From Meridianimarinicoccus roseus (lineage in GTDB: Bacteria; Pseudomonadota; Alphaproteobacteria; Rhodobacterales; Rhodobacteraceae): a stretch of DNA of 34,069 bases. Numbering within the stretch: position 1 is the stretch's first letter; each line of letters begins with the position of its first letter. Under the pieces are notes generated by a model. The model was not told where the DNA came from and did no database searches. It saw only the letters and a list, made by a program, of their open reading frames with translations. Shown here in pieces: positions 1,167-34,056 of this stretch. Made by a program: the position numbers and the translations under genes. The stretch lies in the NCBI RefSeq assembly GCF_003172915.1, contig NZ_QGKU01000050.1:1-34069 (forward strand). The letters are read 5' to 3'.

Positions 1167-2070
1167 AATCCTGACCCTCTATCGGCGCCCAAAATTGCCC
1201 CCCTGGAGCTAAGCTGGCCCGGCGCTGCGTAGTCTCCATGTAGCGCAGCGGCGACGGGCCGGCGGGGGTGCCGTTTGCGCTATGCGCGGTTCTTGAAGCG
1301 CCAGCTTTCGTTGCCGGTTTCGACGATCTCGCAGTGGTGCGTCAGGCGATCGAGCAGCGCGGTGGTCATCTTTGCGTCGCCGAAGACGGTGGGCCATTCG
1401 CCAAAGGCGAGATTGGTCGTGACGATGATCGATGTCCGTTCGTAGAGCTTGCTGATCAGGTGGAACAGGAGCTGACCGCCAGTCTGGGCGAAGGGGAGAT
1501 AGCCGAGTTCGTCCAGGATCAGGAAGTCGAGACGGGAGATCAGGTCCGCGGTCCGGCCCTGGCGTTCGGCGCGGGCTTCGGCGTCGAGCTTGTTGACGAG
1601 GTCGACGACATTGAAGAACCGGCCGCGACGGCCATTGCGGATGCAGGCGCGCGCTATGCCCACCGCCAGATGGGTCTTGCCGGTTCCGGTGCCGCCGATC
1701 AGCACGAGATTGCGTTGATGGTCGAGGAAGTCTCCGGCGGCCAGGTCCCGGATCAGGGTCTCGTTGACCTCGGCCGCCTCGAAGTCGAACTCGTCGATCT
1801 CCTTGGCCAGCGGCAGCTTGGCGATGGTCAGCTGGTATTTGATCGAGCGCGCCTGCTTCTCACTGATCTCGGCTGTCAGGAGGTCGCCAATGATCTGTTG
1901 CGGCTCGTGCTGGCGCTTGACCGCAGTGGCGATGATCTCGTCGTAGGCCGTCCTCATGCCGTAGAGCTTCAACTGGCCCATGGCGTCGAGCACCTGTGAT
2001 CGTTCCATCCGTTGTTCTCCTGAGACTGTCGTAGCGGTCGCAATTGGCGGCACCGCGCATCCTCGTGGCG
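1167..2070 (-). mobile_element. IS21-family element remnant A (istB and right end only)
   Basis: This contains an intact istB on the minus strand plus, downstream of it (1167-1279), what looks like an IS21 right end. On the minus strand there are two similar units, GGCAATTTTGGGCGCCGATA and then GGGTCAGGATTGGG. The istA that should lie upstream of istB (beyond 2070) is absent; instead the end of a second IS21 element begins at 2071. The right end is cut by the ISL3 element near 1166. Element boundaries are inferred. Confidence 0.6.
1280..2008 (-). CDS. istB: IS21 helper ATPase IstB
   Basis: AAA+ ATP-binding helper of IS21 transposition, which normally acts with the transposase IstA to select target DNA. 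The 242-residue product has a Walker A motif [13 protein letters not shown], a Walker B motif [11 protein letters not shown] and the IstB C-terminal block [19 protein letters not shown]. The start at 2008 ([10 protein letters not shown]) is chosen because AGGAGA lies about 8 bases upstream; the reading frame continues open for 25 codons further without a ribosome site. Length and motifs are complete, so the protein is probably intact, but it is orphaned because no istA lies upstream. It is also a useful local reference for the disrupted istB at 3494-4346. Confidence 0.9.
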
Positions 2071-2100
2071 TGTTGGATGTCACTGAGAACTGACCCGGCA
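2071..2100 (+). repeat. IS21 element B left terminal repeat
   Basis: Thirty bases starting TGTTGGATGTCACTGAGAAC, pairing as an inverted repeat with 4390-4419 with 2 mismatches. The inner part TGTCACTGAGAACTGACCC recurs directly at 2112-2130 with one change, as expected for transposase-binding multi-repeats at IS21 ends. Confidence 0.85.
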
Positions 2101-2239
2101 GCAGTCGAAATTGTCACTGAGAATTGACCCATGTGGAACCTTTCCCCTGACGGAATTCGTCGGGGGTTATCGGAGTGATCGACATGGGATTTTTAAGCGT
2201 CATTCGACGTTGGGCGCTGCGAGACAAGATGCCCATCCT

Positions 2240-2660
2240 GGCCGATCAGGTGCCGGACTGGTTGGACCGGATGCTCGCACGCAAGCCGGTGAAGGTTGTC
2301 GCCGTGGCCTTGGCCGCCCGCATGGCCCGCACCGTCTGGGCACTCATCGCCCGAGAGGACAGCTACCGGACCATGCCCAGCTGAGACCGAGATCGCCGCC
2401 GGACGCGTCCAGCGGCCCCGAGACGGTGAGGCGCAGCGTGAGGTGATGGCATAGGCGGAGGACAGGAAGGACGGGACGCCCAGTTCGGACCGGAGCGGCT
2501 TGGACCGCGTGCCATTGATCGGGACCCGTCCACTCCAGCGGACTTCATCAGGGCGCGCGGCAGCTTATGCCGCAGAACAGACGCCGTATACATGGCCGCG
2601 ACCGACCGAGTGCCGAAAAGCCAAACAAAGCTCTTGCCAAGGGGCCATCCATACATGGTC
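2240..2660 (+). mobile_element. IS110-family fragment inside istA
   Basis: The frame following the IstA N-terminus encodes VPDWLDRMLARKPVKVVAVA followed by ARMARTVWALIAREDSYR and a stop at about 2384, which reads as the C-terminal end of an IS110/IS116/IS902 transposase. The following 270 bases have no good reading frame and end near CCATCCATACATGG, similar from memory to the 3' ends of such elements. Both boundaries are approximate. The fragment replaces about 200 codons of istA rather than simply interrupting it, implying a deletion as well as an insertion. Confidence 0.55.
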
Positions 2661-3016
2661 CGAGGACAATGGCGAGTGGCCAGGTCGAGAAGAACGTCTG
2701 CGATGCGCGCCACCGGCTCTGGCAGGTGATGCCAGCCTTTCCAGACTTGATGCCTTGAATGTGTGGCTTGAGGAGCGGTGCAAGGCGCTTTGGGGTGAGA
2801 CCGCGCATGGCAGCCTGCCCGGCAGCCTCGCCGACGTCTGGGCGGCCGAGAAGCTCGCGCTGATGCCGTTACCCACGGCCTTCGATGGCTATGTCGAGCA
2901 AAGCAAGAGGGTGTCACCCACCTGCCTGATCACCTTCGATCGTAATCGCTACTCTGTGCCTGCCAGCTTCGCGAACCGCCCTGTCAGCCTGCACATCTAC
3001 CCCGAACGGCTGGTGC

Positions 3017-3044
3017 CGTGCTGAAAGCACGCCTTTGGCGTGAC
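3017..3044 (+). repeat. 28-bp hairpin insert, copy 1 (in istA)
   Basis: Exactly identical to 3853-3880. It contains two overlapping potential hairpins, GTGC-TGAAA-GCAC and CACGCC-TTT-GGCGTG, which share the GCAC segment. It lies between ERLV and TAEGHV of IstA, adds about 24 bases relative to the expected protein and brings an in-frame TGA. Both copies are followed by what looks like native GTGAC. It does not resemble any element known to me. Confidence 0.8.
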
Positions 3045-3852
3045 GGCCGAAGGGCACGTGGCCTGCGAGCATCAGCGCATCATTGAACGGTCGCACCGTC
3101 AGCCAGGGCGCGTCATTTATGACTGGCGCCATTATCTCGCCGTGGTCCAGCGCAAGCCGGGCGCGCTGCGCAACGGCGCCCCGTTTGTCGAAATGCCGAC
3201 GGCATTCCGCCAGTTGGAGGATCAGATGCTGCGCAAGCCCGGTGGCGATCGGGAGATGGTCGAGATCCTGTCCCTCGTCCTGCATCACGATGAACAGGCC
3301 GTGCTGTGCGCCGTGGAAATGGCACTGGAGGCGGGCGTGCCGACCAAGACCCATGTGCTGAACCTGCTCCACAGGCTGGTGGATGGCAAATCGGCCGACC
3401 AGCCCGATGTGACGCCGCCTTCCGGTCTCGCCCTGACGAAGGAACCTGAGGCCAATGTCGCACGCTATGACGGGCTGCGGGGAGGCACACGCCATGCGTC
3501 ATGACCCCGCCGGAGCCGCCATTGTCATCATGCTGCGCAGCCTGAAGATGCCGGGCATGGCGCAGGCCGTGCATGACCTCACGGAGCAGGGAGCGCCTGC
3601 ATTTGACGCGGCAATCCCGATGCTGTCGCAGCTGCTCAAGGCTGAAATGGCCGAACGCGAGGTGCGCTCGATCGCCTATCACATGAAGGCCGCGCGCTTC
3701 CCGGCCTACAAGGACCTGTCCGGCTTCGACTTCGCCGCCAGCGAGGTCAACGAAGCCCTCGTGCGCCAGCTGCATCGGTGCGAGTTCATGGATGCGGCCG
3801 AGAATGTCGTGCTGATCGGCGGACCCGGTACCGGGAAAAGCCATGTCGCGGT

Positions 3853-3880
3853 CGTGCTGAAAGCACGCCTTTGGCGTGAC
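3853..3880 (+). repeat. 28-bp hairpin insert, copy 2 (in istB)
   Basis: Identical over 28 bases to 3017-3044 and in the same orientation, 836 bases away. It sits directly after the Walker A motif of istB and changes the frame by +1. The flanking bases differ (C before and G after in copy 1; T before and C after in copy 2), so the repeat is sharply bounded. Confidence 0.8.
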
Positions 3881-4019
3881 CATCGGCGTCCAGGCCATCG
3901 AGCACCACCGCAAACGCGTGCGCTTCTTCTCGACCGTCGAGCTGGTCAATGCGCTGGAGCAGGAAAAGGCCCAAGGCAAGGCCAGCAAGATCGCCGAGGC
4001 GCTGGTGAAGACCGAATTG

Positions 4020-4060
4020 TTCGGCATGGATCTCGAACCGATGGCGACCCATGCCTCACT
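4020..4060 (+). repeat. 41-bp palindromic insert, copy 1 (in istB)
   Basis: Starts TTCGGCATGG and ends CCATGCCTCACT. GGCATGG (4023-4029) pairs perfectly with CCATGCC (4049-4055), with TCGAACC in the centre. It matches 4645-4685 at 30 of 41 positions without gaps. In istB it adds about 13 codons in frame ahead of the Walker B motif. Confidence 0.7.
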
Positions 4061-4389
4061 CCTCGACGAACTGGGATACCTGCCGTTCAGCGCCTCGGGC
4101 GATGCGCTGCTGTTCCATATTCTCAGCAAACTCTACGAACGTACCAGCGTCGCTATTACCACCAACCTGAGCTTCAGCGAGTGGGCCAGCGTCTTCGGCG
4201 ATGCCAAGATGACCACCGCGTTGCTCGATCGCCTCACCCACCGCTGCCACATCCTCGAGACCGGCAACGACAGCTATCGGTTCAAGGCCAGCTCCGAGAC
4301 GGCGAAGAAGAAACGGAAGGAGATACCGGCATTGACCCCATCATGAACCAGCAAGCATAACAACCAGGCGGGTCAGATCTCGGTGGCAA

Positions 4390-4419
4390 TGCCGGCTCAG
4401 TTCTCAGCGACATCCAACA
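4390..4419 (-). repeat. IS21 element B right terminal repeat
   Basis: Inverted copy of 2071-2100 (28 of 30 positions). A weaker inner copy lies at 4370-4388 (15 of 19 against 2112-2130). The sequence immediately to the right is the IS5-type transposase remnant, so this marks the insertion point. Confidence 0.85.
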
Positions 4420-4785
4420 TTCTGCCTGAACACGGTCGAGTGCCACACCGGGTCATCGACACCGAGGCCCACGAACCAACTCAACTACAGGCTGTTGTCC
4501 ATTTGCTTCGTGAACTGCCGCTCGGACCGGATCGGGTAGAGAAACTGAGCAAGGCTGGTCCGGATCAGCCGTTTCGGGAAGATGGAGGAGCGCCCCTCCC
4601 CCGCTCAGAGCCCGCCGAACGAGGCATCGAAGGCCACCAGCACGTTCGCCATGGGTATCGAACCAAGGCGGATCGTTGGCTCACTTGACGACGGCCCGGA
4701 GTTTGCGCAACGGATGCCGGCCGGGAGGCTCCTCCAGTTCGAGGTGGCCGAACGACGAGCCCGCCTCCTTGTCCGATCTGCGCAC
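4420..4785 (-). pseudogene. IS5-type transposase N-terminal remnant
   Basis: The minus strand encodes, from a GTG at 4785, RRSDKEAGSSFGHLELEE and GRHPLRKLRAVV, the typical start of an IS5-group transposase. A 41-bp palindromic insert (4645-4685) follows, bringing a stop. Homology then resumes with VAFDASFGGL, RLIRTSLAQFLYPIRSERQ and LSWFVGLGVDDPVWHSTVF, interrupted by two more stops. The gene ends abruptly at 4420, at the terminal repeat of IS21 element B. The element's outer end may reach about 4870, where GGAATTTTTCAGCAGCTGC resembles IS5-type ends (recalled pattern). Dead fragment. Confidence 0.75.
4645..4685 (+). repeat. 41-bp palindromic insert, copy 2 (in IS5 remnant)
   Basis: Starts TTCGCCATGGG and ends GGCTCACT. 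It is 30/41 identical to 4020-4060 on the same window strand but antisense to the host gene. The outer stem is kept: GCCA pairs with TGGC here where copy 1 has GGCA with TGCC, so one base pair changes compensatorily (G-C to C-G). Two inner stem pairs are lost. It lies between AVV and NVLVAFDASF of the transposase. Confidence 0.65.
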
Positions 4786-4870
4786 CGCCCCCCTGTGACC
4801 ACAGTCCTCACCGTAGCACGAGGCCCGCAATGAGCGTCGAGGCTGGAATTTTTCAGCAGCTGCAAAGGCA

Positions 4871-5233
4871 TGAACCTCACCTGCGTGCCGACCCTTCGCG
4901 CACCGGCCATCGAAACGACCGCCGTGCGAGGAGGACCGGTCGCTTGCTATTCCCGCTGCCCGACCCGATACGAAACGCGCGACCCCGCGTTCAGGCACCG
5001 GCGAAGCAACGCGCGGCGAACACACGGGAACAGCCCCGCGGGAACCCATGACGGGGCCCAAGTCAAAGCCCCCCCGGCTGACCAGCCCGACCTGCAATCA
5101 TGGCCGCACCCGCCCACGGCCCGCGCCATCGGCGCACCAAACATGCGCCCTGTGCCGCGTATCGCGCGTGTTTGGGGCCTTTTCCCCTGCTCCGGGATCG
5201 GCCATAACGCGTGCGAGCACGAAAGGGACCACC
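4871..5233. other. Non-coding stretch upstream of serS
   Basis: About 360 bases without a reading frame resembling any protein on either strand. The open frames here have no homology that I recognise and overlap one another. A GGGG-CCTTTT-CCCC hairpin lies near 5174-5190, shortly before serS; no convincing promoter boxes are visible. The region probably holds the serS promoter and the old junction between the IS cluster and the core chromosome. Confidence 0.4.
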
Positions 5234-34016: not shown

Positions 34017-34041
34017 AGCAGTGCCCCCGGACGTGGTGTAG
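33490..34041 (+). pseudogene. IS3 orfB transposase, truncated
   Basis: Integrase-core (DDE) transposase in the -1 frame relative to orfA. Present are the HTH_21 region (SENRRYGYLRLHAMLRREG), the first Asp (WSLDFVSDQL) and the second Asp (NIVDDHSRFC). Homology stops at RVGLPEA (about 34019), just before the usual DNGPEF and the catalytic Glu. The last residues VPPDVV and the stop come from the terminal repeat. Inactive. Confidence 0.88.
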
Positions 34042-34056
34042 GAGGAGGCCGCGCGC
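34017..34056. repeat. Terminal inverted repeat, right copy
   Basis: Exact reverse complement of 1-40. It replaces the remainder of IS3 orfB. The sequence continues for 13 more bases to the window end (GGAGCCTCCGGCG), whereas the left copy starts exactly at base 1, so the true repeat is longer than can be seen. Confidence 0.6.

Follow-up and report, generated by a model that had tools for sequence, protein, structure and literature searches.

The closest described counterpart of the element reported here appears, from its choice of insertion sequences (ISs) as targets, to be RUP of pneumococcus. RUP is described as a small non-coding mobile repeat that targets ISs of more than six families and inactivates their transposases; it is 107 bp long, has terminal repeats like those of IS630-Spn1 and inserts at TA with duplication of the target (PMC2229807). 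The same source gives a length of 105–146 bp for the RPEs of Rickettsia (PMC2229807). GTAG-tagged REPs, which occur with RAYT transposases, are characterized as palindromes of 20–40 bp present in many copies, mostly between genes, and CGTC-tagged REPs as alphaproteobacterial palindromes with no known transposase in that account, having a stem that starts with AT pairs, a CCA-like tail at the end and a terminal motif CGTC, TGTC or CCTC (PMC3733652).

The window, i.e. the whole stretch of 34,069 nt that was analysed, contains two copies of a hairpin element in genes of two IS families, as well as two copies of a palindrome of different sequence, designated kind A. The relevant features are:

1280..2083, minus strand: istB, intact but diverged, without hairpin element
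3018..3044, plus strand: kind A palindrome, inside istA
3494..4346, plus strand: broken istB (IS21), host of copy 1
3854..3880, plus strand: kind A palindrome of 27 bp, unlike the hairpin element in sequence, inside istB; shifts the frame
4019..4059, plus strand: hairpin element copy 1, within istB, where 5 host bases are replaced (relatives have GGTGA); net +36
4430..4784, minus strand: remnant of an ISRsp13-like IS5 transposase, interrupted by copy 2
4644..4684, plus strand: hairpin element copy 2, inside the IS5 (ISRsp13-like) transposase remnant; net +37

In the initial annotation a structured insert was placed at 4020–4060 and 4645–4685. These stretches align without gaps and are identical at 30 of 41 positions, as reported there; the outer stem of copy 1 is a perfect 7 bp, and copy 2 retains four outer pairs, one of them through a G-C to C-G exchange, with the loss of two inner pairs. 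The two copies are located as proposed, but comparison with other copies moves both ends back by one position (4019–4059 and 4644–4684), the last base of each originally reported copy being host sequence. Alignment to uninterrupted relatives of both hosts shows that the insert is absent from them: the site of copy 1 is uninterrupted in IstB of Sagittula, Ponticoccus and Paracoccus, with a best flank identity of 90.8% among the loci compared, and that of copy 2 is uninterrupted in ISRsp13 of the IS5 family and in a Rhodobacter IS5. The hosts had also been considered to read continuously apart from the insert. Uninterrupted relatives exist for both, but the istB carrying copy 1 is already broken upstream by the 27-bp palindrome at 3854–3880. 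The intact istB at 1280–2083 is indeed free of the insert; as a relative, however, it is diverged. The reading frame is kept by copy 1 and shifted by copy 2. A third copy in the same genome (L041) lies in an ISPko1-type IS5 gene for which the empty site is known.

The window copies belong to a large family. A 24-base core, allowing up to 3 mismatches, is present in 27 of 295 Rhodobacteraceae genomes (one genome per genus of the bacterial family to which the window belongs), whereas the reversed pattern used as a control was found in 0 of 295. A covariance model was built from 20 copies, comprising the two window copies and 18 of 30 core-search loci (including L041); seven others (L030, L031, L032, L034, L035, L039 and L049) were excluded because they lack the remainder of the element, four (L033, L054, L056 and L057) were left out, and L058 corresponds to window copy 1. 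The family-wide search with such a model, as proposed in the initial annotation, gave matches in 133 of the 295 genomes at E≤1e-3 and, counted among the matches listed, in 108 at E≤1e-5; a single genome has as many as 19 matches, and the window's own has 7. Paracoccus denitrificans and Ruegeria pomeroyi are among the carriers. When 337 genomes drawn across the class were searched, no more than 4 reached E≤1e-5, and these belong to the same family as the window. A plasmid search yielded 36 records with the hairpin, mostly from Paracoccus and relatives and one from Azospirillum, so that the hairpin is not strictly confined to the family. The latter copy (L214, 901–941) lies in an IS5-type gene of an Azospirillum brasilense plasmid. 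Phage records gave no hairpin match, a degenerate 20-base core had 0 exact matches in viral contigs, and no Rfam family matched window positions 2000–5000 at E values up to 1; no recognised description of the element was found in a literature search of open-licence papers. The copies analysed were 136 among the matches listed, reduced to 129 by removal of identical sites and to 117 by merging of like flanks; the 87 distinct sites are those among the 97 best-scoring copies, with identical flanks merged. Sampling comprised 60 regions beyond the loci from the covariance search, themselves among the matches listed, and 12 plasmid copies from the 36 records.

The element is approximately 40–43 nt long and consists of the end positions N0N1, a TC/TC internal loop, a stem of 7 bp, usually a one-base bulge, a further 3 bp and a 13-nt loop, which is conserved and similar to TCGRACCRRTGGC. 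At most sites N0N1TC reads GTTC, CCTC, ATTC or GCTC. The stem starts with GCC, unlike that of the CGTC-tagged REPs, and the unpaired GTAG end of GTAG-tagged REPs does not occur among the end bases of 117 sites. In the alignment of 20 copies 95.7% of the outer-stem cells are paired and 11 stem cells are changed on both sides, values that were each reached in 0 of 500 shuffles. In a set of 116 distinct copies, obtained from the 117 by removal of one partial copy, the pairs N0:N0' and N1:N1' and stem pairs 2–6 all score above every one of 1000 shuffles. The N0:N0' pair is G-C in 67 of these copies, C.A in 21, A-T in 17 and C-G in 5. These outermost pairs vary between sites within one loop type, a property for which the preferred model given below does not account and which is counted against it. 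On the reverse strand, the two copies tested, one of them a composite, adopt a single nested fold with GA opposite GA. An alternative inner stem was rejected, as it shows no covariation.

Insertion of the hairpin is accompanied by replacement of a few host bases. Among the loci compared, an uninterrupted homologue was found for 56 of the 129 copies (50 distinct sites), and host bases are replaced at all 56 empty sites: four in 32, five in 23 and six in one. Host identity is high until two bases before the first base of TTC/CTC, drops to about chance between the two junctions and is high again from the pyrimidine after N0'. The left host base is C at 105 of 117 sites; on the right, T is found at 70 and C at 47. 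The replaced bases are thus flanked in most cases by C on one side and by a pyrimidine on the other. Replacement is also seen with annotated intact transposases as reference, with four bases replaced relative to an IS3 of Leisingera and five relative to an IS21 that the carrier strain of Paracoccus aminovorans has on a different replicon. No target duplication is present at the aligned junctions of the 56 comparisons, in contrast to the TA duplication of RUP and to MITEs. The net lengths are 36 (n=11), 37 (n=18), 38 (n=25) and 39 (n=2), so the frame is kept in 13 of 56 cases and shifted in the other 43. RPEs are likewise palindromes inserted within genes, and they keep reading frames open. The analogy with RPEs drawn in the initial annotation, that of an in-frame insert, fails because the insertions are mostly out of frame; moreover, they occur in both orientations and replace few target bases. 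Right-hand junctions fall at the second codon position in 44 of 81 cases, as counted with unmasked references. No rule deriving N0N1 from the lost host bases emerged, and sites that lost GGCGT carry two end types. Two of them (L070, 1501–1542, and L077, 1501–1541) contain different copies with different end pairs, and comparison with their empty homologues gives an identical loss, GGCGT, which suggests a hot spot.

The copies are concentrated in transposase genes. Annotated plasmids, together with ORFs of carrier loci that had been checked with Pfam, supplied the transposase references; since eleven of these ORFs contained translated element sequence, the element-coded residues were masked in them before the final counts. 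With the masked references a transposase match lies beside 109 of 129 copies (on both sides in 81, on one side in 28) and beside 73 of the 87 best-scoring distinct sites (52 and 21, respectively). The host genes represent seven families, IS3, IS5, IS256, IS481 (a name that rests on annotated plasmid matches), IS66, IS21 and IS110, in addition to unassigned DDE genes. The orientation of the hairpin is opposite to that of the host gene in 45 cases and the same in 36. As a control, the masked references cover 6,260 of 351,923 bases (1.78%) sampled from the window's own genome, and this 352-kb sample contains 0 hairpin copies; it was chosen non-randomly and comes largely from the interiors of contigs, which are poor in ISs, and this is counted against the preferred explanation. 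Also counted against it are the lower figure of 45 of 129 copies (32 inside, 13 on one side) obtained with annotated plasmid references alone and the 14 of 87 sites that have no transposase match. These 14 include L130, which falls in an ORF region carrying a domain of DDE transposases, L063, which by eye resembles the ISPko1 site, and a non-IS host in L127, where the copy at 1473–1513 lies within an open 695-codon frame matching both phage terminase GpA domains. In the window's own genome 6 of 7 copies have a transposase match and the seventh (L166) is adjacent to an ORF with an IS66 domain according to Pfam. Among the plasmid copies 9 of 12 are matched, the others being L206 (like L205), L207 and L211. 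Independent movement of a structured insert into unrelated IS families, as initially proposed, is supported; further copies are numerous, and the bases of the insert are not present as coding sequence in uninterrupted relatives.

The kind A palindrome, GTGCTGAAAGCACGCCTTTGGCGTGAC, is identical in istA (3018–3044) and istB (3854–3880), and two diverged relatives are present in an IS110 gene of the window's genome. A search of 100 genomes gave 12 matches in 6 genomes, and 9 of these matches have an IS21 or IS110 gene nearby. The exact matches obtained from GTDB genomes form 11 stretches, of which 5 are near IS21 genes and 6 have no transposase match; several of the latter lie in longer hairpins. 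Other genera also have kind A in their IS21 genes, and it occurs in hairpins between genes as well; it is often preceded by CGTC. Two empty-site comparisons, in which the alignments are ambiguous, suggest that kind A may also replace a few bases. In a Sulfitobacter MAG (L021, 5079–5185) four kind A copies are arranged head to tail, three exact and one with one change. New with respect to the initial annotation are the size of the first family, its concentration in transposase genes and the presence of this second hairpin family in that istA and istB.

Taken together, the insert is probably one copy of a family of non-autonomous mobile hairpins of approximately 40–43 nt, which occurs mainly in one alphaproteobacterial family, is concentrated in transposase genes and is moved by an enzyme acting in trans. 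Mobility is indicated by the comparison of occupied and empty sites: many copies at many sites share a structure with compensatory changes and sharp junctions at which 4–5 bases, once 6, are replaced. Mostly open neighbouring host frames (see below) speak for this reading; against it, no mover turned up among the Y1 and Y2 transposases searched. Recognition by the enzyme would rely on the conserved 13-nt hairpin loop together with the TC/TC internal loop, which reads GA/GA on the opposite strand; the hairpin would be joined into a short opening of the target, whereby a patch of 4–5 bases would be discarded and, as the usual effect, the transposase would be broken. The preference for ISs may stem from an enzyme or a DNA intermediate belonging to the ISs; alternatively, it may reflect host defence or the survival of insertions in dispensable DNA.

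The hairpin shares with RUP its preference for ISs of several families, but at approximately 40 nt it is much smaller, it occurs in a different phylum, and its ends probably differ from those of RUP as described. Very small mobile hairpins are also represented by cyanobacterial small dispersed repeats and mitochondrial double-hairpin elements; to our knowledge, neither shows a preference for transposase genes. A passenger of IS91/ISCR elements would be a further possibility, but the Y2 (IS91-type) transposase, present in 4 of 13 high-copy and 2 of 12 zero-copy genomes, does not track the hairpin. In its proposed role the hairpin would be a widespread mobile element far under the usual size, residing mainly in the enzymes of other mobile elements. 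Its signature, a short replaced target with no duplication seen and end pairs that vary between sites yet remain complementary, is explained by none of the classes compared and points to an integration chemistry of its own. Whether insertion sequences are policed by bacteria or by selfish hairpins can thereby be put to the test. If such inserts are not recognised, the transposases look merely decayed in annotation.

A different origin of the distribution, which we consider unlikely, is that the hairpin inserts anywhere, is selected out of other genes and persists in ISs that multiply it. IS copies are dispensable, and some carriers have multiplied since they were interrupted: five G007 contigs (L103, L104, L105, L106 and L126) share the same insertion in an IS5 gene, indicating that the interrupted IS has multiplied, and three G242 contigs have one common insertion. 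Against this explanation, 87 distinct sites are left after merging of identical flanks, and intergenic DNA is dispensable too, yet no more than the 14 sites mentioned above are without a transposase match. The neighbouring host frames are, in addition, mostly open. Beside 99 matched copies only 29 stops were counted in 10,311 host codons, and 83 of the 99 have no stop, figures that give a lower bound on decay because matches tend to end at stops.

It is rather doubtful that the hairpins are written into transposase genes by a host defence in order to disable them. The concentration in genes of seven IS families, the predominance of frameshifting insertions (43 of 56) and the sharing of one istA and istB by two hairpin families that differ in sequence would agree with such a role. 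On the other hand, no defence system was identified, the many-copy carriers vary widely in copy number with no known cause, and kind A is also found outside IS genes, as 6 of its 11 stretches and 3 of its 12 places have no transposase match. A dedicated bacterial system that writes structured hairpins into transposase genes, replacing 4–5 bases each time and thereby disabling mobile elements, would be a prokaryotic counterpart of repeat-induced mutation, a speculative proposal to which we give little weight; if it were true, one kind of machinery would have produced both of the hairpin families that share this istA and istB.

Still less probable is that the hairpin is tolerated, being removed from the message or skipped in translation in the manner of mitochondrial byps. 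The mostly open host frames and the multiplied carriers would fit this idea, and some copies are read through in frame, e.g. in an IS256 in L067. The occurrence of both orientations (45 opposite, 36 same) does not fit, nor does the presence of up to six copies in some IS regions; in L074 (854–1899) six copies in both orientations lie within approximately 1 kb of one IS-rich 3-kb locus.

Movement of the hairpin as a REP repeat by a RAYT (Y1) transposase is highly improbable. Like the GTAG-tagged REPs it is palindromic, similar in size and present in many copies, and relatives are described from alphaproteobacteria (PMC3733652). Unlike them, it lies mostly inside genes, namely those of transposases, and Y1 transposases are nearly absent: Y1_Tnp was found in 1 of 13 high-copy genomes, i.e. 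it is missing from 12, and in 1 of 12 zero-copy genomes. Chance similarity of two coding stretches is refuted by the absence of the insert from uninterrupted relatives, the empty reversed-pattern control (0/295) and the covariation, and nothing was left in its favour after the searches.

At the ends of the window, positions 1–40 and 34017–34056 form a perfect 40-base inverted repeat beside transposase-like ORFs, as if repeats had ended the contig.
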